A stretch of 64,000 nucleotides of DNA from positions 1-64,000 of the forward strand of contig JAUYAO010000031.1 of assembly GCA_030692565.1 (NCBI GenBank). The letters run 5' to 3'. This stretch comes from Nitrospira sp. (GTDB taxonomy: Bacteria > Nitrospirota > Nitrospiria > Nitrospirales > Nitrospiraceae). Position 1 is the stretch's first letter; every line of letters begins with the position of its first letter. Under the pieces are notes generated by a model. That model did no database searches. It was given only the letters and a program-made list of their open reading frames with translations, and was not told the origin of the DNA. Positions 7,534 to 29,095 of this stretch are shown here, piece by piece. A program made the translations under genes and the position numbers.

Positions 7534-8841
7534 TCACCTCACCTGCTTCACGTCGAGCCTCAAAAAATGCGTCGCGCAGGAGATGCAAGGGTCATAGCAC
7601 CGGATGACTTTTTCGCATCCCAAGGCCGCTTGCTCATTCGAGAGATCCAGCACACGAGGCAGATAGGCACGCAGGTCCTCTTCGATTCGACGCTGGTTCT
7701 GCGAAGTCGGTGGAACGATCTTGGCTTCGCGAATCAGGCCGTCGCCATCCACCCGATACCGATGATAAAGAATGCCTCTCGGCGCTTCGGTGCAAGCCAT
7801 CCCGGTGCCGGCGCGCACGGTCACCGGGACCGACGGACTGGGTGGCGGCTCGTACCTGTCGATGATCCGCAGCGTCTCCTCGATCGCATACAGGATTTCG
7901 ACGGAGCGGGCGACAATCGCGTGAAACGGATTCCGCAGAGGCAGAGACAGTCCCGTGTCCGCCAATACTTGCTTCCCCAGCGGCGACAGATGGTCGTGAT
8001 TGAGGTTCACCCGCGCCATGGGCCCCACCAAATAACTGGCTCCGTTGAGTCTGCATTGGAGGGCTGTAGAATAGGGCGCCTGCTCTTCCCTGAAATGTTG
8101 CTCGAACTCCACTGCGGAAATCTTTACTCCGCCACTGGACAAGATCGATCCCTCATTGAAGGGATACTCATCGGGAGGACGGAGCGCGACGAAGGTATAG
8201 TCCTGTGCAAAATCAGGATAATCGAATCCCGCAACCCAGCGGACGGTCTCCACCGCTGCATCGCGTGCCCACAGAAATTCATCTTTCAGCCCCTCCAGTT
8301 CACGGCGCAGCGGCACGCGCGAAAACCCACCGACCTTCACCGAGACCGGATGCACGGAGCGGCCACCCAGCAGGGTCATCAAGGCATTGCCGGCTTTCTT
8401 CAATCGCAGCCCCCTGGTCACGATCTCCGGATGATCTTTGGCCATCGCGATCGCGCTGGCATAGCCGAGAAAGTCCGGCGCGTGGAGCATGTAGACGTGG
8501 AGCGTATGGCTCTCGATCCATTCGCCGCAGTAGATCATCCGCCGCAAATCCCGCAGCGCCCCCTCCACGGTCACACCGAAGATCTGCTCCAGCGCATGCA
8601 CGGCGCTCATCTGGTAGGCCACGGGACAGATGCCGCAGATCCGCGCCACGATGTCCGGCACCTCGTCGTAATGCCGGCCTACCAAAAAGGCCTCGAAGAA
8701 CCGCGGCGGCTCGAAGATTTTCAGCTCGACGTCCTGCACGACACCGTCCTTCACGGTGACACGGAGCGCGCCTTCACCCTCCACGCGCGCAATCGTGCCG
8801 ACCGCGATGGTTCTGGTGTTGGTTTCTTTTGACTCACTCAT
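7534..8841 (-). CDS. hydA: NAD(P)-reducing [NiFe] hydrogenase large subunit HydA (alpha, group 3b type)
   Basis: Catalytic subunit of a cytoplasmic, bidirectional heterotetrameric hydrogenase of the sulfhydrogenase class. The two CxxC pairs that hold the NiFe site are visible: RICGICPVA (C69, C72) and DPCISCATH (C419, C422). The ten residues after His425 form the tail removed by the maturation protease. The length of 435 residues fits group 3b/3d alpha subunits, and the partner genes hydB, hydG and hydD fit 3b. The start follows an accessory island rather than hydD, so the ancestral contiguity with hydD at 15.2 kb has been broken. Phylogeny would be needed to fix the subgroup. Confidence 0.93.
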
Positions 8842-9463: not shown

Positions 9464-9481
9464 GAGGCTGCTCCTGTGAAA

Positions 9482-9552
9482 CCTAACGTTCAAGGCAACC
9501 GGACGCTGCGCGGCTTTATCGCGCAGCGTCCGTGTTGACTGCCGGGTTTGGC
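9482..9552 (-). other. attC-like site following the alpha/beta hydrolase gene
   Basis: Minus-strand boxes GCCAAAC (9546-9552) and CGTTAGG (9482-9488) flank a perfect 12-bp stem, GGACGCTGCGCG paired with CGCGCAGCGTCC (9501-9512 and 9520-9531), with a seven-base loop. Size, box sequences and stem match environmental integron attC sites closely. This is the clearest of the candidate sites. Confidence 0.7.
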
Positions 9553-9593
9553 GTTGCCCAAGAACCGGAGATTGATCACGAGTGCCGAGGGCA

Positions 9594-10544: not shown

Positions 10545-10576
10545 CTTGCTCTCGTTCTTGGAATCGCCCAGCGGAG

Positions 10577-10645
10577 AAGTAACTGACACTGTGCAGCTTG
10601 ATCGCGTAGCGTCCGGTGAAAGATGGGTTGGACGTACCTGCCGCA
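10577..10645 (-). other. Possible degenerate attC-like site
   Basis: Between the DUF6920-like gene stop and the hydrolase start is a stretch with partial similarity to the neighbouring attC stem (GCGTAGCGTCCGGTGAAAG) but with poor pairing and no clear right-hand box. It may be a decayed cassette boundary. Confidence 0.3.
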
Positions 10646-10657
10646 CAAGCCAATGAT

Positions 10658-11518: not shown

Positions 11519-11605
11519 TTTGTCATTCGCCCCTTTCTGCGCACACTCAACAACCACTGAATTCGATGTCGCCATGATTAGCCATCATCTTCTGGTACCG
11601 CGCAG

Positions 11606-12637: not shown

Positions 12638-12816
12638 CGCGCTTTCTCCTACGGGACATCGGGGTCAATATTCCGTGATGCCTAACTATGTGGGTCTTCG
12701 CACATTCAAGTGGGTCATTCTGTGGTCCGATCCTGTGTGACAGCCTTGTCTGATGCGGCATTCCAGGCGTTCCCCACCGCTTGAAACTGGTGCAGGTCCT
12801 GGCGCAGAGTCGCCGC

Positions 12817-12924
12817 ATGAAGAACCCCACGTCAATCCGCGCCCTGTTCTCGCTGCCAGGCTTCGTCGCCGCCTCCCGGCTCCTCGGCGTCTTTGGAGAC
12901 CGCTACGCCAGGGTGCTGGTGTGA
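12817..12924 (+). CDS. Short ORF with the ISL3 transposase N-terminal sequence, out of frame with the rest
   Basis: An ATG at 12817 opens a 35-codon frame beginning MKNPTSIRALFSLPG, like ordinary ISL3 transposase N-termini. It stops at TGA 12922-12924. That TGA overlaps a GTG (12921) which starts the main transposase frame, giving a GTGA junction. A run of seven A follows six bases later. Either the transposase is made as two coupled pieces or it has suffered a frameshift. Confidence 0.5.
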   Translation: MKNPTSIRALFSLPGFVAASRLLGVFGDRYARVLV

Positions 12925-14066
12925 CAGCGCCGAAAAAAACGGCGATCTGCTCGCAGTGTGGCCACCGGTGCCGCGGTCGCTACGACAAACGCACCTGCCG
13001 TGCCCGCGACCTCTCGGCCGGCGGGTTCCGTATCTACGTCCAGTTTGAGCGCTGGCGGGTCCACTGCCCGCGGTGCCGTGGCGTGTACGTAGAGCGCCTC
13101 GACTGGCTGGCGAAGCACCCGCGCTTCACCCAGCGCTTCGCGAGGCACGTGGGGGCACTCTGCCGCGAGAGGACCAACACGGCGGTGGCCAAGGCGGAGC
13201 GCCTCCACGACAGCACGGTCAAGGATCTCGACACGATCTACATGCAACAGCAGGTCGCCCGCGCCGGCCTGCCCGCGCCGCGGGCGATCGGCGTGGACGA
13301 GATCGCCATCCGGAAGGGGCACGACTCCCGCATCGTCGTCAGCGACCTCGACCGCAGGCGGCCAATCTGGGTCGGCGGCAAGGGCCGCACCGAGGCCGAC
13401 ATGAACCTCTTCTTTGCCGCGCTGGGCGCGAAAAAGACGGCGCACATCCAGCTCGTGGCGATGGACATGTGGAAGCCCTTTCGCACCTCACTCACGCGCC
13501 ATGCGCCACAGGCACGCGTGATCTTCGACAAATTCCATATCGTGCGCCACCTCGGTGAGGCGCTCGACGCCGTCCGCCGCAGCGAGTACCGCCGCCTCGC
13601 CGCCAAGGACCGCGCCTTCATCAAGGGACCGCGCGATACGCTGCTCTCCCACCGTGAGCACCTCTCCCTCGACGGCCGCCGTTCCCTCGCCAAGCTGCTC
13701 AAAGCCAACAAGCGACTGAACACCGCCTCCCTGCTCAAGGAGTCTTTTGGCCAGCTCTGGGGCTACCAGACCGAGAGCGGGGCCCGCGCCTTCTTCACGC
13801 GTTGGACACAGAGCCTCAAGTGGCAGCGGCTCACGCCCTACGAGACGTTCGCGGCGATGATTGACCGCCACTGGGAGGGCATCGCCTCGTACTGTCACCC
13901 GGAGAACAAGGTCAGCCTCGGCCTCGTGGAGGGGCTCAACAACAAGATCCGTGTCCTCCAGCGCCGTGCCTATGGCTATCGAGACGAGGACTACCTCAAA
14001 AAACTCAAAATCGTCGCCGCCTTCCTGCCTCCGTTAACGCGGAGTGAGGAAAAGGACCCACTGTGA
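12921..14066 (+). CDS. ISL3-family transposase
   Basis: DDE transposase that moves the surrounding element. From the GTG at 12921 it has 381 residues; the open frame extends upstream to 12753, but that part is compositionally biased and unlike the family. A zinc-binding region (CSQCGHRC...CPRC, first 55 residues) is followed by a helix-turn-helix and the catalytic domain. Candidate catalytic acids are IGVDEIAIRKGH, LVAMDMWKPFR and VEGLNNKIR. The first 35 residues expected of the family lie in another frame just upstream, so activity is uncertain. Confidence 0.85.
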   Translation: MTAPKKTAICSQCGHRCRGRYDKRTCRARDLSAGGFRIYVQFERWRVHCPRCRGVYVERLDWLAKHPRFTQRFARHVGALCRERTNTAVAKAERLHDSTVKDLDTIYMQQQVARAGLPAPRAIGVDEIAIRKGHDSRIVVSDLDRRRPIWVGGKGRTEADMNLFFAALGAKKTAHIQLVAMDMWKPFRTSLTRHAPQARVIFDKFHIVRHLGEALDAVRRSEYRRLAAKDRAFIKGPRDTLLSHREHLSLDGRRSLAKLLKANKRLNTASLLKESFGQLWGYQTESGARAFFTRWTQSLKWQRLTPYETFAAMIDRHWEGIASYCHPENKVSLGLVEGLNNKIRVLQRRAYGYRDEDYLKKLKIVAAFLPPLTRSEEKDPL

Positions 14067-14081
14067 TCCGCGAAGACCCAA

Positions 14082-14166
14082 CTATGTATTATCCGGTTCC
14101 GGATAAGTCCCCTGGTCCGGCCCGCGTGCTGTATAAGCTCCCTGCGTCGTCCGGCAACGAAGCAGG
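14082..14166. repeat. 85-base imperfect repeat, copy 1
   Basis: This segment, immediately right of the ISL3 element, aligns with 14993-15079 over its whole length at roughly 80% identity with one small indel. The best-conserved part is GTCGTCCGGCAACGAAGC. The ISL3 target site lies at its left end. The two copies are direct repeats flanking the toxin-antitoxin pair. Function unknown. Confidence 0.7.
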
Positions 14167-14324
14167 AGGGCACATGGCGTAGTTTAATGTCATCCCACTA
14201 TCCGGGCTGCGACCGCCTGACGTCATTTCCGATTCCTACAAGACGCCCGCGCTTTCTCATGGACGCACAGCGAACCGATCTGGCTGCGCAGGCGTCGTGC
14301 GCGGCATGGGCAACCATTCTGCGC

Positions 14325-14384
14325 CCTAGAAATTGAGGGTAAGCCACCGAATTTTCGGGGGTCGGCTCCACCCTCTTGTTAGGC
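14325..14384 (-). other. attC-like site following the antitoxin gene
   Basis: The antitoxin stop codon lies in a GCCTAAC box (minus strand; + strand GTTAGGC 14378-14384). An imperfect stem with GAGGGT/ACCCTC outer arms and a GAATTTTC top ends near CTAGGGC. The sequence beyond (GCGCAGAATGGTTGCCCATG) resembles that beyond the 8993-9072 site. Confidence 0.55.
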
Positions 14385-14678
14385 TTTCTTCACCTTTGCT
14401 CTTCGCTTTTGGGGCAGCAGCGGAATTAAACAACGCAACGTCCTATTCACAGATTCCGAGTCTGGGAAATACGCTTGAATATCCGGTTCAAGAACAACGG
14501 CACCCTCTTTGGGCACGACTTCCTTAACAAGAGTGGTGCCATCCGCTTTATGGATCGTGATGGTATACCCAGCTTGCATGGCGTGATAGTGCTTGCCACG
14601 CGCTCCCCCCCTAAAATCATATTCGGTGCGCATATCATGGTCCTCCACCTGTACTATTTTAGTCAGTGACTTCTTCAT
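14379..14678 (-). CDS. BrnA-like antitoxin
   Basis: A 99-residue protein encoded directly downstream of, and overlapping by 20 bases, the BrnT-like toxin gene. The central DMRTEYDFRGGARGKHYHAM and the C-terminal FPDSESVNRTLRCLIPLL match the small antitoxins that follow BrnT/DUF497 toxins, which typically have a DNA-binding C-terminal half. It would neutralise the toxin and may repress the pair. The ATG at 14678 is chosen because it begins MKKSLTKIV; upstream codons overlap the toxin. Its stop lies in an attC-like site. Confidence 0.75.
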   Translation of the reverse strand: MKKSLTKIVQVEDHDMRTEYDFRGGARGKHYHAMQAGYTITIHKADGTTLVKEVVPKEGAVVLEPDIQAYFPDSESVNRTLRCLIPLLPQKRRAKVKKA

Positions 14679-14943
14679 AAAGTTTCCGTTCCGATGGGGT
14701 TGCCTTTCGGCAACTGACAATGCGTATGGTCGAGCCACGTTCGGTATAAACCACGAGCAGCACGCGGCCCTTGTCAGAACTTCCGATGTCTATATACCGT
14801 TGTTCATCCGCTGAGTGCTCAGGGTCATGAATGGTCATTGAAAAGGGATCGGTGAAAACGGTTGTGGCTTCATCGAAACCGACTCTGTGCTTTTTGAGAT
14901 TGGCTTTAGCTTTCTCTTCGTCCCACTCAAAACTCAGTTTCAT
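14659..14943 (-). CDS. brnT: BrnT-family ribonuclease toxin (DUF497)
   Basis: A 94-residue protein with the DUF497 signature: it starts MKLSFEWDEEKAKANLKKH, continues RVGFDEATTVFTDP, and ends with the GRVLLVVYTERGSTIRIVSCRKATPSERKLYE block that carries the RelE-like RNase residues. Such toxins cleave RNA and arrest growth unless bound by the antitoxin encoded next to them. It is the first gene of the pair, in a cassette-like context typical of toxin-antitoxin modules in integron arrays. Confidence 0.88.
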   Translation of the reverse strand: MKLSFEWDEEKAKANLKKHRVGFDEATTVFTDPFSMTIHDPEHSADEQRYIDIGSSDKGRVLLVVYTERGSTIRIVSCRKATPSERKLYEEVTD

Positions 14944-14992
14944 GACGGCTCCTTCGAACCATAGCGTCTTGCTATCGAGTCATTTACCCTAC

Positions 14993-15079
14993 CTATGGTT
15001 TATCTGGTTCCGTATAAGATCCTCGTTCAGGCCTACGTGCAGTATAAGCCCCCCTGAGTCGTCCGGCAACGAAGCGGGG
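14993..15079. repeat. 85-base imperfect repeat, copy 2
   Basis: Second copy of the element at 14082-14166, in the same orientation, between the toxin gene and hydD. The conserved core is GTCGTCCGGCAACGAAGC. The interval 14944-15209 otherwise holds a short hairpin (GCGAATC...GATTCGC near 15185-15210) and no supported gene. Confidence 0.7.
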
Positions 15080-15209
15080 CACCTGCGTACGCATCGCACG
15101 TCACTCGTGAATCGTGAGTGAGACGGGCGGGACGGGCGCGACTCGCGCAGATACAACTTCGGACTCGTCCCGCTTTTCTCGCAGGCTCGCGAATCCCGCG
15201 AGATTCGCT

Positions 15210-16052
15210 TCACGTTTCGTCGCGTTCCCACGCCTGGCTCTCCTCGCGGAACGGTCTTACTGAGCCGTTGATGCCGCGGAATCGGCGCAATACCTCGACC
15301 GGAATGAGGTTGAGTCCCTGGTGAAACTCTTTGGCCAGCGAGGCCGTATTCGGAGGAAAGCCGGGTCCCTCATGCATCCCTTCGGCCGGGCCGAAACAGC
15401 CGTAGCAGTCCCGTCCCATGCTCGGACAAATCGCGCCGCACCCGGTGCGCGTCACCGGCCCGAGGCAGGGCATCCCCTTGGCGACCATCACGCAGACGTT
15501 CCCCCGGCGTTTGCACTCGATGCACACGCTGTGTGTCGGCAGCCTCGGTTGCACGCCGGCCAACAGATCGGTGAGCACCCGGAGCAATTGTGCTTTGTCG
15601 ATGGGGCAGCCCCACAGTTCGAAGTCGACGCGCACATGTTCCGAGATCGCCGTCGAGGTGCTCAGGCTCTGGATGTACTGCGGGCTGGGATAGACCACTC
15701 GCTTGAAGGCGTCGACATCCGCCCAGTTGCGCAACGCTTGAATCCCGCCCGCCGTGGCGCAGGCGCCAATCGTGATCAACAGCGCGACTTGCTTCCGGAC
15801 GGACAGAATCCGATGCGCATCCTCCGGCGTCGTGATGGACCCCTCCACCAAGGCGATGCCGTAAGGGCCCTCCCGCATGTCGCTGGAGGCTTCGGGAAAG
15901 TAGGCGATGTCCAAGACCTGCCCTAACGCGAGCAGATCATCCTCTAAATTCAAGATGCTAAGCTGACAGCCGTCGCAGGAGGCGAACTTGAAGACAGCAA
16001 GCGTGGGCCGCATGGGCGTCACGAGCGGGTTGACTCTTTTCTTGTCACTCAT
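15210..16052 (-). CDS. hydD: [NiFe] hydrogenase small subunit HydD (delta, group 3b type)
   Basis: The electron-transferring small subunit that pairs with HydA. The 280-residue protein shows FKFASCDGCQLSIL near the N-terminus, ligands of the proximal [4Fe-4S] cluster. ITIGACATAGGIQALRN (about 95) and a cysteine-rich C-terminal region (CIECKRRGNVC, MPCLGPVTRTGCGAICP, CYGCFGP, about 178-225) supply further cluster ligands. It has no Tat signal, in keeping with a cytoplasmic enzyme. It follows hydG by 22 bases. Confidence 0.92.
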   Translation of the reverse strand: MSDKKRVNPLVTPMRPTLAVFKFASCDGCQLSILNLEDDLLALGQVLDIAYFPEASSDMREGPYGIALVEGSITTPEDAHRILSVRKQVALLITIGACATAGGIQALRNWADVDAFKRVVYPSPQYIQSLSTSTAISEHVRVDFELWGCPIDKAQLLRVLTDLLAGVQPRLPTHSVCIECKRRGNVCVMVAKGMPCLGPVTRTGCGAICPSMGRDCYGCFGPAEGMHEGPGFPPNTASLAKEFHQGLNLIPVEVLRRFRGINGSVRPFREESQAWERDET

Positions 16053-16074: not shown

Positions 16075-16944
16075 TCACACACCCGTTCGTCCCAACCACG
16101 GCGCGACCCGATCGTAGCGCATCACCGGGCCGTCTTTGCACAGAAAGTACGGACCCATCTGACAATGGCCGCACAGGCCGATCCCACATTCCATGTGCCG
16201 CTCCAGCGAGACGTAGATCGCGGTCGCCGGAATCCCACGCTGCATCAAGATCGGCACACCCAAGCGCATCATGATCTCCGGTCCACACATCAGCACCATG
16301 GTGCGTGCCGGGTTCACCGCCACCTGCTCGAACAGCTCCGTCACCACACCGATGTGATAGCGCCACGTCTTGCCGGGCTGGTCGCTCGTCAACAATACCT
16401 CGGTATCAGGATGCCGCCGCCACGCATCGAACCGCTCCCGATAGAGCAGGTCGTGCGGCGTCTTGACCCCGTGCAGAATCTTCACGCTGCCATACTGGGT
16501 GCGCCGACGGAAGATATATTCAATGGCGCCGACGACCGGTGCGCAGCCCAGCCCGCCGGTCACGATCACCACGTCGTTGCCCTGCGCGCCGTCGAGCGGC
16601 CACCCCTGCCCGAACGGCCCGCGGATGCCCAACTCATCGCCCGGCTGCAATCGCGCGATGGCCTTGGTGACTCGTCCCACGACGCGGATGGTGTGGCCCA
16701 GAAACTCCGGCTCATCCGGATCCGACACGATCGAGATCGCCACCTCGCCGACCCCGAACAGATAGACCATATTGAACTGTCCGGCCGCGAATCGATAGGT
16801 TCGCCGCACCTGCTCATCGACGAAGCGCAATCGATAGGTGTCGATGTCCTCCGCCTCTCTGATCTTCTCCACAATGGTGGCCGGCTGGATCAGATAGGGG
16901 TTGGCTGCTGCCTGTACGCTATCCTCTGAGAAGGGCGTCATCAT
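16075..16944 (-). CDS. hydG: Hydrogenase diaphorase subunit HydG (gamma, FAD/NAD(P)-binding)
   Basis: A ferredoxin-NADP reductase-like subunit that passes electrons between the hydrogenase FeS chain and NAD(P). The 289-residue protein has the FAD-binding region RFAAGQFNMVYLFGVGEVAIS (about 53-73), the nucleotide-binding VTGGLGCAPVVGAIEYI (about 128-144) and a C-terminal [2Fe-2S] motif CGIGLCGHC...FLCKDGPV. It starts 28 bases after nqrM, an unusual neighbour. A decayed partial copy of the same gene lies at 24921-25054. Two adjacent ATGs (16944, 16941) could serve as start. Confidence 0.9.
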   Translation of the reverse strand: MMTPFSEDSVQAAANPYLIQPATIVEKIREAEDIDTYRLRFVDEQVRRTYRFAAGQFNMVYLFGVGEVAISIVSDPDEPEFLGHTIRVVGRVTKAIARLQPGDELGIRGPFGQGWPLDGAQGNDVVIVTGGLGCAPVVGAIEYIFRRRTQYGSVKILHGVKTPHDLLYRERFDAWRRHPDTEVLLTSDQPGKTWRYHIGVVTELFEQVAVNPARTMVLMCGPEIMMRLGVPILMQRGIPATAIYVSLERHMECGIGLCGHCQMGPYFLCKDGPVMRYDRVAPWLGRTGV

Positions 16945-16972: not shown

Positions 16973-17233
16973 TCACGAGCCAGATCCCTCCCGCGCCTTG
17001 CCGTCGCGATCAGGTCTCGTGGGTTGCGCCTGAAGAGTCCGCCGAGGACCTTGCGTCCGGCTGAGGGCAAGACGTTCCGGGCAAGGCTTATCGCAACCAG
17101 CATCGCACTCCAGACCAATGCGCTCAAGGCCGCCACAACTGCCGCCGATCGGATTGCGACCGACCAGTACACCCACCGCCATAGCCAGGATGGCAATACC
17201 CATAACGAGAAAAGTCACCAGGAAAATTGTCAT
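16973..17233 (-). CDS. nqrM: Na+-NQR maturation protein NqrM
   Basis: NqrM is needed to insert iron into the NqrD/NqrE site of the Na+-translocating NADH:quinone reductase. The 86-residue protein has one N-terminal membrane helix (FLVTFLVMGIAILAMAVGVLVG within the first 25 residues). The family pattern GRNPIGGSCGGLERIGLECDAGC follows, with four cysteines. The hydrophilic tail after about residue 55 is longer than usual and unlike the family. Its ATG overlaps the apbE stop by four bases. Confidence 0.85.
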   Translation of the reverse strand: MTIFLVTFLVMGIAILAMAVGVLVGRNPIGGSCGGLERIGLECDAGCDKPCPERLALSRTQGPRRTLQAQPTRPDRDGKAREGSGS

Positions 17234-18285
17234 GACAGCTCCTGTTTCCGGTAACGTTGGAAGGCGCAGCAGACGCGTTCCTCAAATTGTCCATCCCGTT
17301 CGATAACGAAGAGGACGGGAAGATTGAGTCGTTCGGCTATGGCCATGCCACGCTCAGGCCCCAACACTTGGAACGCGGTGGCCCAGGCATCGGCTCGCAT
17401 GCTGGTGTCCGCCAACACAGTTACCGAGACTAGATGATTATCAACCGGCCAGCCGGTTGCCGGATTGATGGTATGGGAGTAGCGTCGACCGGCAATTTCG
17501 AAAAAGTTGCGATAATCGCCCGATGTGGCGAGTGCGATGTCGCTGAGCGCCAGTACCGTGTGCACCGAACGTTCGCCCGGCAACGGTTTCTCAATCGCGA
17601 TCCGCCAGGGTGTATCTTGCTCCTTGAAGCCGCGTACCCGTAACTCGCCACCGATCTCAACCATATAATGTTCAATGCCGTGCGCGGTCATGAGTTCAGC
17701 AACTCGGTCCACACCGTACCCCTTAGCGATCCCGGAAAGATCCAGGAATACATCAGGGCGGTGCTTGCGTATCGCTGGGTGAGTCTCACGTAGTGTTACT
17801 TTATCGAGGCCGCTGCGCGTGCGCGCAGCGGCGATGTCGGTTTCAAGCGGGATGCGGTCAGGATGAAACTCCGGGCCGAAGCCCCACAGATTGACCAGGG
17901 GACCAACCGTGATGTCGAATGCGCCTTCGCTCTGGACCCCGATTTCGAGCGCAGCTTTGAGCACGGCAAGTAGCGAAGCGGATGTGGGAACCCAGTCGGT
18001 GGTGCGCAGACGGTTAAAGCGCGACAGTTCCGATTCCGGGTCATAGGTGGACATGGTGTGATTGATTTCGGCCAGCAATGCATCCACTTGGATTTGCATC
18101 GCCTTCAGTGTCGGAGTGTTCTGGGTGGGGTGGTATTTCACGTTGTAGGTGGTTCCCATTGTGGGACCACTCATGTGCAGCGCTTCGACAGGTGGCTCTG
18201 AGCGTAACAGGCCGAAGCCGGTACCGGCAGCCAGCAGAACGATCACGGCAATCACTGCACGAGGGCGTGGAATGGAGGGATGCAT
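17230..18285 (-). CDS. apbE: FAD:protein FMN transferase ApbE
   Basis: ApbE attaches FMN through a phosphoester bond to threonines in NqrB and NqrC. The 351-residue product has an N-terminal membrane/lipoprotein-type segment (AVIAVIVLLAAGTGFGLL), then SGPTMGTTYNVKY, the conserved FDITVGPLVNLWGFGP, LDLSGIAKGYGVDRVAELM and SHTINPATGWPVD. It sits between nqrF and nqrM, as expected for a dedicated maturation factor. Normal length. Confidence 0.95.
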   Translation of the reverse strand: MHPSIPRPRAVIAVIVLLAAGTGFGLLRSEPPVEALHMSGPTMGTTYNVKYHPTQNTPTLKAMQIQVDALLAEINHTMSTYDPESELSRFNRLRTTDWVPTSASLLAVLKAALEIGVQSEGAFDITVGPLVNLWGFGPEFHPDRIPLETDIAAARTRSGLDKVTLRETHPAIRKHRPDVFLDLSGIAKGYGVDRVAELMTAHGIEHYMVEIGGELRVRGFKEQDTPWRIAIEKPLPGERSVHTVLALSDIALATSGDYRNFFEIAGRRYSHTINPATGWPVDNHLVSVTVLADTSMRADAWATAFQVLGPERGMAIAERLNLPVLFVIERDGQFEERVCCAFQRYRKQELS

Positions 18286-18291
18286 GGCTGG

Positions 18292-19512
18292 TCATCCTCC
18301 GAAGTCATCGAGCATGATGTTTTCCCGCTCGACACCCAGATCCAACAGCATTTTGATCACGGCAGCATTCATCATCGGCGGTCCGCAGAGGTAGTACTCA
18401 CAGTCCTCTGGCGCCGGATGGGTCTTCAGATACTCATTATACAGCACGTTATGGATGAAGCCGGTATAGCCGCTCCACGCGTCCTCAGGGAGAGCATCGG
18501 ACAAGGCGACATGCCATTCGAAGTTGTCGTGCGCCGCGGCCAGCTTGTCGAAATCGTCGACATAGAACATCTCACGCTTCGATCGAGCCCCGTACCAGAA
18601 GGACATCTTGCGTGTGGTCTTGATGCGACCCAGCTGATCGAAAATATGCGAACGCATGGGTGCCATCCCTGCGCCACCACCGATGAATACCATCTCGTTG
18701 TTGGTCTCACGCGCAAAGAAGTCGCCAAACGGCCCGGAGATGGTGACCTTGTCTCCCGGTGTAAGTCCGAACAGGTAGGATGACATTTTACCCGGAGGCA
18801 CATTCTTGGTGCGCGGTGGGGGAGTGGCAATCCGAATATTGAGCATAATGATGCCACGCTCCTCAGGGTAATTGGCCATGGAGTAGGCGCGCTCGATCGG
18901 CTCATTGACCCTGGAAACAAGATCCCAGAGATTCAGCCGATCCCAGTCGTCGCGAAATCGTTCTTCGACGTCAAACTCCTTGAACGATTGCTCGTACGGC
19001 GGACATTGAATCTGGATGTACCCTCCGGCACGGAAATCGACATATTCATCCGGGGGAAGCTCCAGGACTAGTTCTTTGATGAAGGTCGCCACATTGTGGT
19101 TGGAGCGCACGGTGCAGTCCCATTTCTTGACACCGAACACCTCATCTGGAATCACGATCTTCATGTCCTGCTTGACCGCCACCTGACAGGAGAGACGGTA
19201 GCCCTCGCGCGCTTCACGCTTGGTGATATGCGAGGTTTCGGTCGGCAGAATGACCCCACCCCCTTCGAAGACCTTTACCCGGCACACGCCACAAGTACCG
19301 CCGCCGCCGCAGGCGGAACTGACAAAAATCCTGGCGTTGCTGAGCGCACCGAGCAGCTTGCCGCCAATCGGAGTCTCGATAAATTTCTTATCGTTGATCG
19401 TGATCGTGACATGGCCACTGGCTACCAGTTTGGAGCGCGCTGCCAGAATCAGGCCTACCAGAATGAGGACGATCCCGGTGAAAAAACTGACTCCCAGTAT
19501 GATCTCGATCAT
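18292..19512 (-). CDS. nqrF: Na+-NQR subunit F (NADH dehydrogenase, FAD and 2Fe-2S)
   Basis: The electron entry subunit of NQR. The 406-residue protein has one N-terminal membrane helix (about 3-26), a ferredoxin domain with Cys68, Cys74 and Cys77 in [12 protein letters not shown] plus Cys109, an FAD-binding segment ending [11 protein letters not shown], and NADH-binding [20 protein letters not shown]. It ends with the aromatic/acidic [10 protein letters not shown] tail seen in NqrF. It is directly followed by apbE, seven bases away. Confidence 0.97.
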
Positions 19513-19531
19513 CCGAGGCCTCTCATCAGGC

Positions 19532-20140
19532 TCAGAGTTGAATTCCGGAAAAGGCCATGAACCCGAGGGCCATCAACCCCGCGGTGATGAATGCGACGCC
19601 CAGTCCCTGCAAACCATCGGGTATGTCGGAATACTTGAGCTTCTCACGCACCCCTGCCATCGCAGCGATCGCGACCGCCCACCCGACACCCGAGCCCAGA
19701 CCATAGGTGAGGCTCTCGCTAAAGGTATAGTCACGTTCGACCATAAACAGACTGCCTCCGAGAATGGCGCAGTTGACGGTAATGAGCGGCAAAAAAATCC
19801 CCAGCGAGTTGTGCAGTTTCGGGACATGCCGGTCGAGAAACATTTCCAGTACCTGGACGATCGCCGCAATGACACTGATGTAGCTGATGAGCCCAAGGAA
19901 ACTCAGATTCATATCAGAGAGCCCCGCCCACGCCAGCGCTCCATCACGTAGTAGAAACTGGTAGATAAGATTATTGACCGGCACGGACAACGCCTGCACG
20001 ACGATCACCGCGATGCCGAGTCCGAGCGCCGTGCTGATTTGCTTTGATACGGCAAGAAAAGTGCACATCCCGAGAAAAAACGTCAGCGCAAGATTCTCGA
20101 CGAAGACCGCGGTGATAAACAGATTGATCAGCTCTGTCAT
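19532..20140 (-). CDS. nqrE: Na+-NQR subunit E
   Basis: Membrane subunit of about 202 residues with six predicted helices, begins [24 protein letters not shown]. NqrE and NqrD together hold an intramembrane iron site with Cys ligands; the first helix Cys (GMCTFLAVS) and a second near [10 protein letters not shown] are present. Overlaps nqrD by four bases. Homologous to RnfA, but the whole operon identifies it as Nqr. Confidence 0.96.
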
Positions 20141-20802
20141 GAGGTCGCCTCGGGACGATGCGCGTGATAGATCCGGTATTCAGGTTCCTCGACTTGTGCC
20201 GGCTTCCAGGAGCGCACCACCCAAATGATCATGCCGATCAGGAAAAACGCACTCGGAGGCAGTAGCAACAAGCCGTTTGGCACATACCACCCGCCATCCC
20301 GTTCAAGCAGGAGTATCGGATACCCGAACAGGGAACCGGACCCCAAGAGCTCGCGTACGGTACCGACTGCCAGTAACAGTGCGCTATAGCCCAGGCCGTT
20401 GCCGAGGCCATCGAGGAGGCTTGGGAGAGGCGGATGTTTCATCGCATAGGCTTCAGCGCGTCCCATGACGATACAATTGGTGATAATCAACCCGACGAAT
20501 ACCGACAGGTCCTTGCTGATTGCGAACGCGAAGGCTTTGAGGAACTGATCGGTGACGATGACCAGCGAAGAAATAATGGTCATCTGCACGATGATGCGGA
20601 CGCTGCTCGGGATATGGTTGCGGATCACACTGATGGCGGCATTGGAGAGGGCGGTCACGACTGTCAGGGCGATGCACATAGTGACCGTGGTTGAGAGTTT
20701 CGACGTCACGGCCAGCGCCGAGCAAATCCCCAGGACCTGCAGGATGATCGGGTTATTGTCAACGATCGGGTCGAAAATAATTTTGCGATGCTGGTACGAC
20801 AT
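20137..20802 (-). CDS. nqrD: Na+-NQR subunit D
   Basis: Polytopic subunit of 221 residues homologous to RnfE. Conserved stretches are [21 protein letters not shown] near the start and [20 protein letters not shown], both containing the cysteines that coordinate the NqrD/E iron centre. It lies between nqrC (5 bases) and nqrE (4-base overlap), giving the standard nqrABCDEF order. Confidence 0.96.
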
Positions 20803-20807
20803 GAGAG

Positions 20808-21617
20808 TTAGCTCCTTTCGTGACGCAAACGGGACAGGTACGGCCCGTAGCCTTTGTCGCTCAGCCAGAATTTCAGCAAATTCTCCACGCCTCGTGAGGT
20901 GATGGTGGCGCCGGCGAGTGCGTCGACCTGGTGCTGGGCTTCGGGTGTGGACCTGTCAATCGAGCCCCTCACCAGTTCAACCTGAACCTTCCATTCATTG
21001 TCGAATAGGACTTTGCCCTCCCATTGCGCGCGCCACCTGGGATTGTCGATTTCCCCCCCTAGTCCCGGGGTTTCGGCATGCTGATAGAATCGGAGCCCCT
21101 GAACCGTTCGCAAATCCCCCTCAAGCGCAAGAAACCCGTACATGGTGGACCAGAGCCCGTAGCCGTACACCGGCAGAATCAGTTTCTTCAACTCGCCGTT
21201 GGCGCCGACAATCCGATAGACCGGCAGATAGCGCGGTTCTCGCCTGATCCCCGCCACATCCTCTCGGCGGGTGAGTTCGCTGGAGATCTCGGGATCCTTT
21301 CCGGCCTTGACGATATTAAAGGTGTCAGGATCGATCCCCTTCACCTCGTCACCGGTTGCCAGTTCGACCATGCGCGCGTCAATCCGTTTCAGCGCTTGTT
21401 CTTCCGTCAACCCCTCCTTGAGCAGGCCGGAGACCGCAATCACATTCCGTATGAGGTCGGCCTTCTGATTCGTTTCCTGAATCGGTCGAAGGAGCACCGC
21501 CGCGCCGGCGACCACCACCGAGCAGACCAGACAGACGACAAGCGTCACCAGCAGCGTTCTGCTCGCACTTTCGACTGGCGCAGCGGATACGGCGGAATCT
21601 GATTCAGGCGCGGACAT
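20808..21617 (-). CDS. nqrC: Na+-NQR subunit C (covalent FMN)
   Basis: Periplasmic flavoprotein subunit, 269 residues, with one N-terminal membrane helix ([22 protein letters not shown]). The flavinylation motif is in [15 protein letters not shown] (about residue 240), where the second threonine of the S/A-GAT-x-T consensus carries FMN attached by ApbE. It overlaps the end of nqrB by 14 bases. Confidence 0.96.
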
Positions 21618-22818
21618 GGCGGCGTAGCCTCCGTCGGATGTTCAGCTGGACGACCGCATAATCGATCAGGGGCGCAAACACATTGGCAAACAAAATCGTG
21701 AGCATCACGCCTTCAGGAAATGCTGGGTTCGCCACGCGGATCAGCACGGTCATGGCTCCGATCAGAATGCCGAAGACCCAGCGCCCGGCACTCGTCATGG
21801 CGGCCGACACCGGATCGGTGGCCATGAAGACCATGCCGAAGGCAAACCCACCCAGCACCAGGTGCCAGTACCAGGGCATTGCCACCATGGGATTGGTGTC
21901 GCTGCCGACAAGATTGAACAGGAGCGAGGCCCCGACCATTCCCAGAAAGACCCCGACGATAATGCGCCAAGAACCGACCCCAGTATAGATCAGGAACGCC
22001 GCGCCGAGCAGACAGGCGAGGGTGGAAGTCTCTCCCATGGAGCCCGGCATCAGGCCGATAAAGGCATTCCACCAGGTCACGCCTCCGCGGATGATCTCCT
22101 CTACGCCGCCAACTTTACCAAGGCTGAGCGCGGTCGCGCCGGAATAGCCATCCACCGCCACCCACACCCGGTCACCGGAGATTTCGGCGGGATAGGCGAA
22201 AAACAGAAACGCCCGCGCGGTCAGGGCGGGATTGAGAAAATTCTTGCCGGTCCCGCCGAAGATCTCTTTGCCGAGTACCACGCCGAAGCTAATCCCGATG
22301 GCGACCATCCAGAGCGGCATATTGGGTGGCAGCGTCAGCGTGAAGAGCATGGAGGTGACCAGAAAGCCTTCATTGATCTCTTTCTGACGCACCGTGGCAA
22401 AGACCGTTTCCCAGACACCGCCGACGATTAAGGTCGTCAGATAGATCGGCAGAAAATACAAGAAGCCATGGACCGTATTGGCAAGAATACTGCCGGCATC
22501 AAAACCGATATGAAGCGCCGCCAGCAGGTCATAACGCCAGCCAGTCTTGGCCATCCCCATCTTTGCGAGTGCCAGATTAGCCTGATAGCCGGTATTGAAC
22601 CAGCTCCACAGGATGCAGGGAATCAGCGCCACCACCACATACACCATCAATCTCTTCAGATCGATGCCATCCCGCACATGAGGCGCGGTGTGCGTGGTCT
22701 CGGGAGAGGAATACAGAAACACATCGACCATCTCAAAGACGGGATAGTACTTTTCAAACCGGCCGCCCTTGGCAAACAGAGGCCTGAGACGATCAAGATA
22801 GCGTTTCATGCCTGCCAT
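21604..22818 (-). CDS. nqrB: Na+-NQR subunit B (covalent FMN, riboflavin, Na+ channel)
   Basis: The large membrane subunit and likely Na+ path. The 404-residue protein has ten hydrophobic segments. [15 protein letters not shown] (about residue 230) holds the threonine that ApbE flavinylates, and the conserved [17 protein letters not shown] precedes it. The ATG overlaps the nqrA stop as TGATG; a second in-frame Met four codons on ([10 protein letters not shown]) could also be the start. Confidence 0.96.
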
Positions 22819-24176
22819 CAGCCTTCTCTCTCAATCTGGCTCAGCACGCTCCGCAGCACCGGCCCGTAGTCGTTCTTGCCCACGCACACGAAGGAGCACA
22901 AGGCGAGGTCTTCCTCGTCCAATTCCATGCAGCCCAGCTTTTGTGCCATATCGGTATCGCCCACAAGCAGGTAGCGCAACAGTTGCGTCGGTAGGATGTC
23001 CAGGGGCATGACATCCTCGAAGGTGCCAAAAGGCACCATGGCGCGTGGGCTCCCGTTTTGGCTGGTCGTGAAAGGAAATGCTTCCCCGCGGTGACGGAAA
23101 AGACTCGACAGCATGACGTTGGTCTGGGAGTATTTCCTCCGCCCAGGCGAGAGCCAGCCCATGAACTCTCGTTCCGTTCCCTCTTTAAGCACGCACACCT
23201 GCAGATGATGGCGTCCCAGATAGGACGACCAGTCGACTGCGTGTCGCCCTGACCAGATCGAGCCGGAGATGACACGGTGCTCACCGCCTTGAAGCTCACC
23301 CTCAACCAGTTCCTCGATGCAGGCGCCGAGCCGGGTGCGCAACACACGCGGCTGTTTAACCTGGGGGCCGCCTAGCGCCACGATGCGTTCGGTCCATAAC
23401 CGGCCACTGGTAAACAGTTTGCCGATAGCAATCACTTCTTGGTAGTTGAGGTGCCAGACGGTCTTGCGTGTGTCTACCGGTTCAATGAAATGAATGTGCG
23501 TCCCCGCTAGACCGGCTGGGTGGGGACCTCCAAACCTCGCCTGGTGCAGTTGGTCCAGACCCTGCGGAAGTGGCAGTTCGGCTTCGGGTGACGTGCACAC
23601 CCAAAGCGGCATGGTGCCTAGGCGCGAAAGCACCGTCAGGCCATGGACGAACGACTCAGCCTCTGCAGTAATAATTGGAACAGGATCGGCGGCCAGCGGG
23701 TTGCTGTCCATCGCCGTCACGAAGATGGCGGCCGGACGGGTGGACGGGTCGGGGATCTTGCTATAGGGACGCGTGCGTAACGTCACCCACAGACCCGAGG
23801 CCAAAAGATTGTCCACAACCTGCGCTTCAGTCAAGCTGGCCAGTTGATGGGCACCGTACGCAGTGAAGGGCTCCTCGTCTTCGGTTTCGTCAAGTCGGAT
23901 GATGACTGACTGGAGCATGCGTTCAGCTCCACGCCTGATGGCAATCACCTCGCCGGCACCCGGAGCAGTGATGCGCACGCCGGGTAGCTTCTTGTGCTCA
24001 AACAGCGATTGGCCAATCCTGACCTTGTCCCCTTCGGCTACCCGCATGCCGGGTTTGAGATCTAGATGATCCATGCCCAGAACGGCAACGTGGCGGACCG
24101 GTTTGGCTACATGGACACGCTGCTCCGGTTTCCCGCTGACCGGCAGATCCAACCCTTTTTTGATTCTGACAATCAT
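22818..24176 (-). CDS. nqrA: Na+-NQR subunit A
   Basis: Cytoplasmic, quinone-associated subunit, 452 residues. The start at 24176 gives the canonical [17 protein letters not shown]; the frame is open upstream but without similarity. Other family stretches are [20 protein letters not shown] and the C-terminal [19 protein letters not shown]. First gene of the nqr operon. The 282 bases upstream hold no gene and presumably the promoter, but I could not pick out convincing -35/-10 boxes. Confidence 0.96.
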
Positions 24177-24458
24177 AGAAGTTGTGATTGAATTAAAACT
24201 GTCGCGATGCATTGATTTGACCAACCTTATGTGAACGGTCAGTTTTCATGATTCGAGTTGGTGTACACAAACAGCGGGGTTGAGGATGGAAGCGCCTTGT
24301 GTCTGTAAGTTCCAACTGTCTTTCATCGGAAATCCATCTTCGTTTCGGATGTACCTCCAGGGACGACCGCCGGGGATGACAGCAGGCAGAATAGCGACCG
24401 CAGTCCGCCTCACACCATCTCACGGGTTCCTTCTCTTTGTTCCTATCGTCTCACCATC

Positions 24459-24875
24459 TCAGGAGCTGATGTATTGTTTAAGCTGCTGGATGAGCGTTTC
24501 CTTTTCGTCGATCAGGAGCGCTGCCATATCGCGCAAGGAGACGATACCAATGAACTTGTCCCCTTCAAAGACCAGCAGGTGGCGGCATTGATGTTCCTTC
24601 ATGAGATCCAAGCAGGTGGCGGCAGTGTCGTTGGGGCTGACTTTGATGGGGTCGCGGGCTTTCACATCCTTGATCAGGACCTTTCCCGGGTCCTTCCCCT
24701 TCCCGACCACGTTCATCATCAACTCACGCTCCGTGAACAGCCCGCAAATGCCGGAAGCACCGGTAAGTACCACGGACCCGATGAATTCCTCAGTCATAAG
24801 TTGAACGGCATCAAACACGGATCTGTTTTCATCGATGGTGGCTACTCGCTTTACAATTTGCGTTGCGATCGTCAT
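24459..24875 (-). CDS. Two-CBS-domain protein
   Basis: A 138-residue protein made only of a CBS pair (Bateman module), which usually senses adenine nucleotides or NAD derivatives. Repeats are visible at about 8-60 (VFDAVQLMTEEFIGSVVLTG...GLFTERELM) and 70-125 (TAATCLDLMKEHQCRHLLVFEGDKFIGIVSLRDM). The ATG at 24875 has a GGAGG site ten bases upstream. The frame is open further, but that part is the decayed hydG fragment. It sits between pntB and nqrA, so a regulatory role towards either complex is possible but only inferred. Confidence 0.88.
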   Translation of the reverse strand: MTIATQIVKRVATIDENRSVFDAVQLMTEEFIGSVVLTGASGICGLFTERELMMNVVGKGKDPGKVLIKDVKARDPIKVSPNDTAATCLDLMKEHQCRHLLVFEGDKFIGIVSLRDMAALLIDEKETLIQQLKQYISS

Positions 24876-24920
24876 GGCTGCATTTCCTCCTGTTACAATC
24901 CTTCCCGTCATCGTAAGATC

Positions 24921-25054
24921 GAGACATAGATCGCGGTCGCCGGAATCCCGTGTTGCATGAAGAATAGACCAGGTCGTGCGCGTCTTCACCCCGTGCAGAA
25001 TCTTCACGGCTCCATACTGGGTGCGCCAAGGGCGTCATCATGGCTCCCTATTGA
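24921..25054 (-). pseudogene. Decayed fragment of a second hydG gene
   Basis: Three short blocks match the intact hydG in order and orientation: 24921-24963 to 16208-16250 (about 38 of 43 bases), 24965-25027 to 16442-16505 (about 58 of 64) and 25028-25054 to 16931-16957 (26 of 27). The last includes the start codon and ribosome-binding site. Two internal deletions (about 190 and 425 bases) and loss of the 3' end have reduced the gene to 134 bases. It begins 15 bases after the pntB stop. Confidence 0.9.
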
Positions 25055-25069
25055 CTGGGCCAGAACTCA

Positions 25070-26458
25070 TCAGCCTTCTCTCAATACTTTCAGGACGGCT
25101 TGCACCATCTCTCGGCCATCGCCGAACAACATAATTGTCTTGTTCGCGGCGAACAAGGGATTGGGGATGCCCGCGAAGCCAGGACTCAGGCTGCGCTTAA
25201 TCACCACGGCGGTTCTCGCCTTGTCCACATCGAGGATCGGCATGCCGGCAATGGGGCTCGTGGGGTCGGTCCGTGCCAGTGGATTCACCACATCGTTCGC
25301 GCCGATAACGAGCGCGACATCCGTTTGTTCGAACATGGGATTGCTCTCGTCGAGATCTTTGAGCAACTCATACGGAACGTTCGCCTCCGCCAGCAGCACG
25401 TTCATATGTCCCGGCATACGTCCCGCCACCGGATGGATGGCGAATTCGACCTCAATGCCGCGTCCGCGCAACAGTTCGGCGAGGTGCGCCACGCTATGCT
25501 GGGCCTGGGAGACGGCCATCCCATAACCAGGCACGATCACCACCCGGCGCGCGGCCTCGAAGAGCACGGCGACTTCTTCCGGCGAACCGGCTTTCACCCG
25601 CCCCGTATAGATCTCCTCATCCTGCCCGCCCTGTTTCGCAGGCGGGGCGCTTCCCACCATCACATCCACCAGCGATCGGTTCATGGCTCGACACATGATC
25701 TGCGTGAGAATGAATCCCGACGCGCCCACCAGCGACCCGGCAATAATCAACACGTTATTGTTGAGCACAAAGCCTGTCGCAGCCGCGGCGAGCCCGGAAC
25801 AGGAATTGAGCAAGGCAATGATCACCGGCATGTCGGCCCCCCCAACCGGCAGCACGAACAACAACCCGAGCAACGACGAGACGGCCACGACGAGCCAGTA
25901 GGCGGCATGAGGTTCAGGTGTCAGCAAGAGCCAGAGTCCGAGTCCTCCAGCGGCGATGGCCAGTCCGGCGTTGATCGCGTATTGGCCGGGAAACCGAACG
26001 GCGCTCTCGGTGATGAGCGCTTGCAACTTGGCAAAGGCCACGAGACTGCCCCAGAACGTCACCGCGCCGATCACACCGGAGGCGACCGCGGCCACGGTGA
26101 AATGGCTGAGTGTCGCGACGGCCCCATCCTGGTTCTCCAGCAACCCGGCTCCGGCCACAAGGACAGACGCGCCGCCGCCTAATCCGTTCAGGATCGCGAC
26201 CATTTGCGGCATGGCGGTCATCTGGATCTTCAGCGCCAGCGTCGCGCCGATGACCGATCCGATCAACAGCGCGATGGCGATCGTCTGGAACCCCAGAATG
26301 CGCTGGTCGAACAGCGTCAGCGCGACGGCCAGGAGCATTCCCAGCGAGCCCAACACATTTCCACGCGCCGCCGTGCGCGGATGCGCGAGCCCCTTCAGCC
26401 CCACCACAAAGAGGGCCGAGGCGCCCAGGTAGCCGAGATTGATGAGTGCGGCGTTCAT
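25070..26458 (-). CDS. pntB: NAD(P) transhydrogenase beta subunit PntB
   Basis: Membrane and NADP(H)-binding subunit of the proton-translocating transhydrogenase, which exchanges hydride between NADH and NADP+. The start at 26458 (MNAALINLGYLGAS) gives 462 residues with about nine hydrophobic helices. The C-terminal dIII domain follows, with VVIVPGYGMAVSQAQH (about 300), MPGHMNVLLAEANVPY and the end KTIMLFGDGREMVQ. It overlaps pntAB by four bases. The frame is open upstream but has no similarity there. Confidence 0.95.
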   Translation of the reverse strand: MNAALINLGYLGASALFVVGLKGLAHPRTAARGNVLGSLGMLLAVALTLFDQRILGFQTIAIALLIGSVIGATLALKIQMTAMPQMVAILNGLGGGASVLVAGAGLLENQDGAVATLSHFTVAAVASGVIGAVTFWGSLVAFAKLQALITESAVRFPGQYAINAGLAIAAGGLGLWLLLTPEPHAAYWLVVAVSSLLGLLFVLPVGGADMPVIIALLNSCSGLAAAATGFVLNNNVLIIAGSLVGASGFILTQIMCRAMNRSLVDVMVGSAPPAKQGGQDEEIYTGRVKAGSPEEVAVLFEAARRVVIVPGYGMAVSQAQHSVAHLAELLRGRGIEVEFAIHPVAGRMPGHMNVLLAEANVPYELLKDLDESNPMFEQTDVALVIGANDVVNPLARTDPTSPIAGMPILDVDKARTAVVIKRSLSPGFAGIPNPLFAANKTIMLFGDGREMVQAVLKVLREG

Positions 26459-26748
26459 GGTACCCTCTTTGGGCGAGGTCTGAACATCGCGAGCATCCGA
26501 TGCGTCACGAGAAACCCGCCCACCACATTGATCGTGGCGAAGACCACGGCGACAAATCCCAGCGCGCTCATGAGGATATCTTGTTCGGACCCGGCAGCCA
26601 GCAGCGCCCCGACGAGCGTAATTCCCGAAATCGCGTTCGCGCCGGACATGAGCGGCGTATGGAGCGTGGGCGGCACTTTCGTGATGATTTCGAATCCCGC
26701 AAAGAGGGCCAGCACGAAAATCGTCAACCCGATCACGGCGGTCTCCAT
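26455..26748 (-). CDS. pntAB: NAD(P) transhydrogenase alpha subunit part 2 (membrane part)
   Basis: A 97-residue membrane protein with three hydrophobic helices, corresponding to the C-terminal membrane part of E. coli PntA. Conserved segments are GFEIITKVPPTLHTPLMSGANAISGI and VFATINVVGGFLVTHRML. The ATG shares a base with the pntAA stop (TGATG); a GTG one codon earlier is also possible. The split alpha subunit (AA, AB, B) matches the three-subunit enzyme known from Rhodospirillum. Confidence 0.94.
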   Translation of the reverse strand: METAVIGLTIFVLALFAGFEIITKVPPTLHTPLMSGANAISGITLVGALLAAGSEQDILMSALGFVAVVFATINVVGGFLVTHRMLAMFRPRPKRVP

Positions 26749-27950
26749 CACGCATTTCCTTCTTCGGCGACGTCATGATGTGTGGCAGGGAGCAATGCGC
26801 CGATCCTCGGATGGACCACTGCTCCACCTCGCGTCACCAGCGTCTCGCGCGTGATCTCATCCGCCACATCCACGCGCAAGAAACCGTCTTTGCACAGATA
26901 GAGAAGGACATTGGCAAGATTCCTTCCATACATCTGGCTCGCGTGCATCGGCACCGTGCTCGGCAGATTGGTCGGTCCCAGCACGGTCACCCCCTGATGC
27001 ACCACTGCTTCATTTGGACGGGTCAGCTCACAGTTGCCGCCACGGTCAGCCGCCACATCCACAATGACCGAGCCCCGCGCCATTCGCGCCACCATGTCGG
27101 CCGTGATGAGCATCGGCGCTCGTTGGCCAGGAACCGCCGCGGTGGTCACGACGACATCGCTCGCGGTCACGATAGGAGTCAACAGTTCACGCTGCCTCCG
27201 ATAGATGGCCTCACCCAAGGTCTTGGCATAGCCGCCTGTCTCCTCGGCCTCGCCAACCTCGGCCAGCACCTCGACGGCCTTCGCTCCCAGACTCTGAATT
27301 TGGTCCTTCACTGCTGGACGCACATCGTAGGCCGAGACGGCTGCCCCCAAGCGACGTGCCGTGGCAATCGCCTGCAAGCCCGCTACGCCGGCGCCGATCA
27401 CGAGGACCCGCGCCGGTGGAATGGTTCCCGCCGCGGTTGTCAGCATCGGAAACAGCTTCGGCAGGCTGGCTGCCGCCAGCAGCACAGCCTTGTAGCCCAC
27501 GATGGTGGCGAGCGAGGAGAGCACATCCATGCTTTGCGCGCGGGCGAGCCGAGGCATCAGTTCCATGGCAAATACGGTTACGCCCCGCTTCGCCAACTCC
27601 AAGGCAGCCCGAGGTTGCACCAGGGGGTCGGCTAAGCCGATGACCGTGTGCTCGGGACGGAACAGGGGCAGATCGTGACGGCCTATGTCGGGATTGGCGC
27701 CCAGCGTTCTGACCTGGAGCAGGATCTCTGCCGAGGCGAACAGCTCAGAGCGATCTCTCGCCACTCGCGCGCCTTTTATCCGATACGCCTCATCTTCGAA
27801 TCCCGCAGCCTCTCCTGCTCCGGATTCAACCAGCACCTGCAAGCCGATCGTGGTGAGCAACGGCACGTGCGAAGGAATCAACGCCACCAGCGATTCCCCC
27901 GGATACGTTTCCTTCGGCACTCCAACGACGGCCTGCTTTGAATGCGTCAT
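26748..27950 (-). CDS. pntAA: NAD(P) transhydrogenase alpha subunit part 1 (NAD-binding)
   Basis: Soluble dI domain that binds NAD(H), homologous to alanine dehydrogenase. Starting at 27950 ([15 protein letters not shown]) it has 400 residues. It shows the N-terminal VGVPKETYPGESLVALIP and the Rossmann segment VLVIGAGVAGLQAIATARRLGA (about 165). MITADMVARMARGSVIVDVAADRGGNCE (about 270) is also conserved. Its ATG overlaps the hydB stop by four bases (ATGA), so the transhydrogenase is translationally coupled to a hydrogenase gene. Confidence 0.95.
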   Translation of the reverse strand: MTHSKQAVVGVPKETYPGESLVALIPSHVPLLTTIGLQVLVESGAGEAAGFEDEAYRIKGARVARDRSELFASAEILLQVRTLGANPDIGRHDLPLFRPEHTVIGLADPLVQPRAALELAKRGVTVFAMELMPRLARAQSMDVLSSLATIVGYKAVLLAAASLPKLFPMLTTAAGTIPPARVLVIGAGVAGLQAIATARRLGAAVSAYDVRPAVKDQIQSLGAKAVEVLAEVGEAEETGGYAKTLGEAIYRRQRELLTPIVTASDVVVTTAAVPGQRAPMLITADMVARMARGSVIVDVAADRGGNCELTRPNEAVVHQGVTVLGPTNLPSTVPMHASQMYGRNLANVLLYLCKDGFLRVDVADEITRETLVTRGGAVVHPRIGALLPATHHDVAEEGNA

Positions 27951-29095
27951 GCTTGGCTCGGCTTCTCCTTGGCCTGAGTCGAAGGCTTCAGTAGCGCCGG
28001 CAGCTCTACGGTCAGGTCGATCCCGACCGGGCACCAGGTGATGCACCGGCCACAGCCGACACAGCCGGAGGTCCCGAACTGATCGATCCACGACGCGAGT
28101 TTGTGCGTGAGCCACATGCGATAGCGGTCCTTGATCGTTGGGCGAACATTCTTGCCGTGAATATAACCGTGGTCCTGCGTGAAACAGGAATCCCACAATC
28201 TGGTGTGCTCAGCGCGTTGGTGCGTGAGGTCCGGCGTCTCCTCAACGGTATGACAGAAGCAGGTCGGGCAGACCATCGTGCAATTCCCGCAGGCCAGGCA
28301 TCGCGCCGCCACGTCGTCCCAGCGTGGATGCTCATGCGCATCATACAGAGCCTGTGGGAGCTGCGATCGGTCCAGGTGCCGCGTCTGGCTGCGGGCGCAG
28401 GCCCCAATCTGCTGTTCGGCCTCACGAACTTGTGTCGTCGAGGCCGGCGCAAGCGACAGCTCGCCCAGCACCTCCTCGCCCGCCGCACTGCCTGCTTCCA
28501 CGAGAAGCTCTTTGTCCAATTCGGTCAGCGCCAGATCGAAACCCGCTCGCGCGCGAGGACCTGTATCCATCGAGGCGCAGAAACAGGGGGCCAGCGCGCG
28601 AGTGCAGTTCACCGCAATCAGAAACAAGCCGTCACGGCGCGCGTGATAATAGGGATCCTGGTAGGCGTCGTTCAGAAAAATCTGATCCTGGATGGCCAGC
28701 CCGGCGAGATCACAGGCGCGCGCTCCTAGGATGGCAACTTTCTCTTGCTGAGGAAGCGTCGGGCGAGCGGAGAATCCGTTCGTGGTCCGTTCGATCCGGA
28801 GGAGCGGCTCGCGTGGGGCAAAGGTCAGAGGCTTGAGCGATTGCGGCCCGTGCACAACGCCGAACATTTGCCCTGAACCGGTGCTCTCTAGCCGATAGCG
28901 TCCCGGCTCCTGCACATCATGCCAGCCGATCGGCAGATCCGACACCTGCCGGATCGTGTCCCACAGGACCGCCCCATCACGCACCGTCGGACCTACGACG
29001 CGATAGCCCTTGTTATGCAACAGATCAATGAGCCGCTGTAACGACGACGTGAATAAGAGGACGGGGGACCGATCACCTGTCGGCTTGTTCTTCAT
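27947..29095 (-). CDS. hydB: Hydrogenase FeS subunit HydB (beta, group 3b type)
   Basis: Iron-sulfur subunit that links HydG to the hydrogenase dimer; in sulfhydrogenases it is also the candidate S0/polysulfide site. The 382-residue protein has [18 protein letters not shown] (about 130) and two C-terminal ferredoxin-type clusters, [14 protein letters not shown] (about 268) and [14 protein letters not shown] (about 353), plus extra cysteines in [20 protein letters not shown] sequence precedes the ATG. It is the first gene of the split hydBGDA set and lies 33 bases downstream of glgX. Confidence 0.92.

Follow-up and report, generated by a model that had tools for sequence, protein, structure and literature searches.

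A 143-nt hydG vestige beside an nqr block in a Nitrospira hydrogenase operon, probably left by import of the block together with a second hydG

In the cps island of Neisseria meningitidis, an intact galE1 is accompanied by a truncated galE2, illegitimate recombination has been proposed, and the remnant is related to the recipient's allele (PMC5349592). We describe here a Nitrospira locus with the same logic, in which a block, like the cps island, appears to have come in as a unit carrying a version of a gene that the recipient already had where the block inserted, leaving one copy intact and the other as a remnant. The meningococcal locus is a close precedent for this scar, which is a further case of a known type of gene transfer, unusually well resolved. 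The two systems differ in that the cps/galE locus involves capsule genes and a truncated gene lying in inverted repeats that still allow inversion, whereas at the Nitrospira locus the genes are those of nqr, the two copies lie in direct orientation, and the remnant measures 143 nt.

Several Nitrospirales are known to have NQR and group 3b hydrogenases. In 'Ca. N. alkalitolerans', the nqr locus lies near transposases and nqr is thought to have been laterally acquired, and a group 3b hydrogenase has been suggested to feed NADH to both Nuo and Nqr (PMC7784846). Placement of nqr in a hydrogenase operon is not described in that work, and a limited literature search, partly by keyword, returned no description of such an arrangement. 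We observed one comparable operon in Nitrospira sp. M_DeepCast_65m_mx_150 (genome G029, locus L080; G and L numbers are our handles for genomes and loci), which shares with our locus the junction between nqrM and hydG, the presence of nqr in the same hydrogenase operon, and a probable 31-nt hydG start to the left of nqr. It differs in lacking pntAB, in its decayed CBS gene, in its mosaic hydG, and in nqr alleles that belong to another branch. The stand-alone Nitrospira nqr loci that we examined are without the long nqrM tail and hydG, save for decayed loci in G009 and G030.

The DNA analyzed, hereafter the window, is a 64,000-nt stretch of a Nitrospira sp. contig (JAUYAO010000031.1) from a multi-contig draft assembly, and the genomes compared with it are likewise drafts. 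On its minus strand, the order is hydB, pntA, pntB, the hydG vestige, a CBS-domain gene, nqrA-F, apbE, nqrM, intact hydG, hydD, a 6.3-kb insert, and hydA:

27947..29095, minus strand: hydB, beta subunit of a group 3b-type hydrogenase (best NCBIfam match sulfhydrogenase HydB, below the model cut-off)
26748..27950, minus strand: pntA (NCBIfam transhydrogenase alpha)
25070..26458, minus strand: pntB, immediately upstream of the vestige (Pfam PNTB, E 1e-177)
24920..25062, minus strand: hydG vestige, 143 nt (blastn against hydG and base-by-base comparison with clade alleles)
25062-25028, minus strand: vestige block 1, 35 nt, with the hydG ribosome-binding site and start codon
25027-24964, minus strand: vestige block 2, 64 nt
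24963-24920, minus strand: vestige block 3, 44 nt
24459..24875, minus strand: CBS-domain gene, left end of the nqr block (Pfam CBS)
18292..24224, minus strand: nqrABCDEF (Pfam and NCBIfam)
17230..18285, minus strand: apbE (Pfam ApbE, E 1e-94)
16973..17233, minus strand: nqrM with an elongated 3' tail (named by position and a conserved Cys-rich core; alignment and blastn)
16991..17067, minus strand: part of the nqrM tail, similar to the end of an element present five times in genome G063 (78% over 77 bp, E 4e-11)
16075..16944, minus strand: intact hydG, NAD(P)-binding subunit (Pfam; NCBIfam hydrogenase gamma-subunit models, below cut-off)
15210..16052, minus strand: hydD, small subunit (Pfam Oxidored_q6)
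7534..8841, minus strand: hydA, large subunit (NCBIfam hydrogenase alpha-subunit models, below cut-off)

The nqrA-F genes, apbE, and nqrM together form a Na+-NQR operon by Pfam and NCBIfam, nqrM being assigned by position and motif only, with no NCBIfam match in the window. We saw no sigma-70-like promoter in the window genome from pntB to nqrA. The nqr genes may therefore share a transcript with those of the hydrogenase, which would make the proposed coupling of H2 to Na+ testable. Between hydD and hydA, which are adjacent in the related genome G068, lie about 6.3 kb (9068-15200) in which an ISL3-family transposase (12753-14066, plus strand) is accompanied by other genes.

A preliminary description of this DNA had placed three ordered blocks of hydG, including its start codon and ribosome-binding site, after pntB at 24921-25054. 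This is borne out by blastn of the scar against hydG, in which the three blocks are collinear, abut without filler in plus/plus orientation and in the order of hydG, and cover 25062-24920, within about 8 bases of the original extent. They match hydG at 91% over 35 nt (E 3e-9), 91% over 65 (E 8e-22), and 89% over 44 (E 1e-12). Absent from the vestige are 425 nt and 190 nt of internal hydG sequence and the 3' end, together with a 1-nt deletion; no microhomology was evident by eye at either internal deletion. A 26-mer spanning the ribosome-binding site and start codon occurs solely at the two hydG sites, with none expected in shuffles. The intact gene follows nqrM, 8 kb away, so that two copies of hydG, one intact and one a remnant, flank the nqr block. 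Apart from the vestige, hydG is single-copy, and the remaining genome matches are paralogues at 26-29% identity. We also considered whether a 70-codon frame from the vestige start codon, overlapping the CBS start, is a functional leader and set this aside, its length being not very rare by chance. A less-eroded hydG duplicate, which the preliminary description had proposed looking for, was not found among 79 genus genomes or the 80 loci of a GTDB-r220 scan.

The order that preceded the nqr block can be read in relatives. The sister genome G068, whose rpoB is 98% identical to that of the window genome and which is sister to it in the tree, has the order hydB-pntA-pntB-hydG, with a 31-bp spacer between pntB and hydG and no nqrA in the genome. 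Window and G068 share 93% nucleotide identity over hydB-pntA-pntB and the vestige start, and the spacer on the vestige side is identical to that of G068 at 38 of 41 bases. The alignment is continuous across hydB-pntAB as far as base 25028, exactly where vestige block 1 ends, and picks up at the intact hydG 8 kb on, positions 80248-80272 of G068 being used twice. Loci L054, L055, and L056, from which nqr is missing, have like G068 an empty site with a single intact hydG; pntB is also followed by hydG in G058, G012, G059, and G062, and hydB-hydG is the arrangement in most other Nitrospira. In L054 (Nitrospira sp. RCB, 8346-8410), the first ~54 nt of pntA are fused to the last few of pntB between hydB and hydG, and this independent scar shows that pntAB once sat in the operon of that group. 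The proposal that pntB was once directly followed by hydG in the window lineage is thus supported, as is the accompanying view that the CBS-nqr-apbE-nqrM segment stands between two hydG copies of which the proximal one has eroded.

The two hydG copies differ in allelic history, a comparison for which 122 hydG sites are available. Vestige and intact hydG differ by 10 substitutions over these 122 sites, and at 7 of the 10 differences the base of the vestige occurs in G068, L054, L055, or L056. The copies therefore do not differ solely by mutations that followed copying, and erosion of a copy of the intact gene does not by itself account for the vestige. This suggests that the two were already distinct alleles when they became neighbours, or that their separation is as old as that of species. 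The vestige differs from G068 at 8 of 122 sites and the intact hydG at 6 of 122, counts that are suggestive rather than decisive as to which copy is resident; position, with the G068-like spacer, points to the vestige. As for the parallel with the recipient's allele at cps/galE, the copies here are different clade alleles and the remnant sits in a G068-type pntB context, on 122 comparable sites. With so few sites and no clock, the earlier view of the scar as a datable record was optimistic.

Three other Nitrospira genomes also have the junction between a long nqrM tail and hydG, one with an intact hydG and two with stubs. G029 has an intact operon, hydB-nqr-apbE-nqrM-hydG-hydD-hydA; G030 shares the junction, and in G009 a small inserted element lies between tail and hydG. 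Where the nqrM end was read at other nqr loci in the genus, the long tail is lacking and the downstream sequence is unrelated. With the junction shared by G029, G030, and G009, a joining of nqr and hydG in the window genome alone is excluded, unless the junction was later exported from there. Probably, then, the nqr genes came with a hydG already attached, at a junction made before or outside the insertion seen in the window. The resemblance of the nqrM tail to the G063 element is a hint that the end of a mobile element took part in the join. That five-copy element (L200 1499-1625) sits at contig ends and is possibly an insertion-sequence end at the nqrM/hydG join; its flanks were seen at contig ends only, and its interior was not found.

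Evidence on how such a junction travels comes from the hydG of G029, a gene that belongs to the window clade as far as about nt 312-327 and to the G008/G024 type beyond. Informative sites are split 24:6 versus 14:45, with 0 of 10,000 shuffles as extreme in a test that ignores linkage. The hydB, hydD, and hydA genes of G029 are of the native G008/G024 type over most of their length, which shows that an nqrM-hydG piece crossed lineages through recombination within hydG. With its 5' part from the window clade, the mosaic gene also suggests that hydG probably acted as a homology arm. Between hydB and nqr in G029, about 31 nt resemble the hydG start (22 of 31 by eye) inside a 120-bp match at 80%, a probable, weaker parallel to the vestige of the window.

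We consider it probable that CBS-nqrA-F-apbE-nqrM-hydG was imported as a block beside a resident pntB-hydG, whose hydG became the scar. The joining of the nqr block to a hydG in other lineages, intact in G029 and decayed in G030 and G009, is what such an import would lead one to expect. From a starting operon hydB-pntA-pntB-hydG-hydD-hydA, DNA in which CBS-nqrA-F-apbE-nqrM was pre-joined to another hydG of the same clade would have entered. On the right, hydG/hydD would have served as the homology arm; the left join would have been non-homologous or made by a single crossover. The product would be pntB-[old hydG]-CBS-nqr-apbE-nqrM-[incoming or recombinant hydG]-hydD, and deletions would then have taken the 3' end and two internal stretches from the redundant old hydG, of which 143 nt remain. 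The origin of the nqr block outside the window lineage and the path of recombination are our inference. The intact hydG and that of G068 are nearer to each other (6 of 122) than either is to the vestige (10 and 8, respectively), so the pattern could also have arisen through gene conversion or through an older duplication followed by losses. The locus offers a base-resolution record, before and after, of a Na+-pumping complex being wired into the hydrogenase-transhydrogenase operon of a nitrifier, and the record suggests that the join was pre-made and transferable.

Alternatively, the insertion may be old, the clade ancestor having had hydG-nqr-hydG and G068 and others having lost nqr by recombination between the hydG copies, a loss that direct repeats would favor. 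The vestige and the intact hydG are indeed as diverged as orthologues, and G029 and G030 got nqrM-hydG from a donor of the window hydG type. Several independent losses would be needed, however, as G068 and L054-L056 are all without nqr, and the pntB-hydG spacer of G068 is clean and matches that of L054; we regard an old insertion as unlikely. The preliminary description had proposed that hydG was duplicated as nqr inserted, through either a tandem-duplication or a homologous-recombination intermediate. Homologous recombination fits the data. Tandem duplication in the window lineage would account for a collinear vestige with start codon and ribosome-binding site and for the empty site of G068, but it is improbable given the nqrM|hydG junction in G029, G030, and G009 and the standing clade alleles, rather than new mutations, at 7 of the 10 differences. 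We give very little weight to the reverse order of events, in which a pntAB-hydG fragment was inserted upstream of nqr in a resident hydB-nqr-hydG operon, its hydG being truncated; G029 shows that such operons exist, but G068 has pntAB-hydG and L054 a pntAB scar, so pntAB was probably there earlier, and both flanks are about equally G068-like. The draft, multi-contig assembly notwithstanding, an artefact or chance similarity is very unlikely in view of in-order E-values of 1e-9 to 1e-22, a vestige that is diverged and deleted unlike a misjoin, and a right junction that recurs in other genomes.

More tentatively, electron-transfer modules (pntAB, nqr) may have landed repeatedly in the hydB/hydG slot of the Nitrospira hydrogenase operon, with an nqr-hydG cassette that moves between lineages using hydG as a homology arm. 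If so, H2-NAD(P) chemistry and Na+ pumping have repeatedly been placed in one operon, and in some lineages the pump outlives the adjoining hydrogenase genes, as in G030, with no hydG left, and at the nqr locus of G009, which keeps its hydrogenase operon elsewhere. G030 (L053; 2.0-Mb genome) has a decayed hydB remnant to the left of nqr (5080-5320), a hydG stub to the right (after 12560), and no intact hydG elsewhere; judging from these remains, nqr has outlived the hydrogenase there. In G009 (L171, 16140-16500), nqrM is followed by an insert of ~211 bp with near-perfect 19-bp inverted ends and then by a decayed hydG start of ~120 nt, and an apparent hydB remnant lies upstream of nqrA.

The nqr block, too, has been shuffled. 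In nqr trees, whose support values come from quick trees, the window branches near G025 and G063, and G029 and G030 lie on another branch, so the nqr genes and the junction differ in part of their histories. The same trees rule out G029 as the direct donor of the window nqr, and we know of no donor that combines these nqr alleles with a hydG of the window clade. Homology upstream of the CBS gene did not serve to place the left boundary of the block, as no similarity to other CBS loci was evident by eye upstream of the start codon. The CBS gene of the window is intact; at most other nqr loci in the genus, blastn of the sequence upstream of nqrA recovers a decayed 3' remnant of it. The window thus looks to have kept the older version of the block. 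Upstream of nqrA in L039-L051 and related loci, the decayed CBS 3' end is in many cases preceded by a TTGACA-type promoter-like sequence, an arrangement conserved across the genus.
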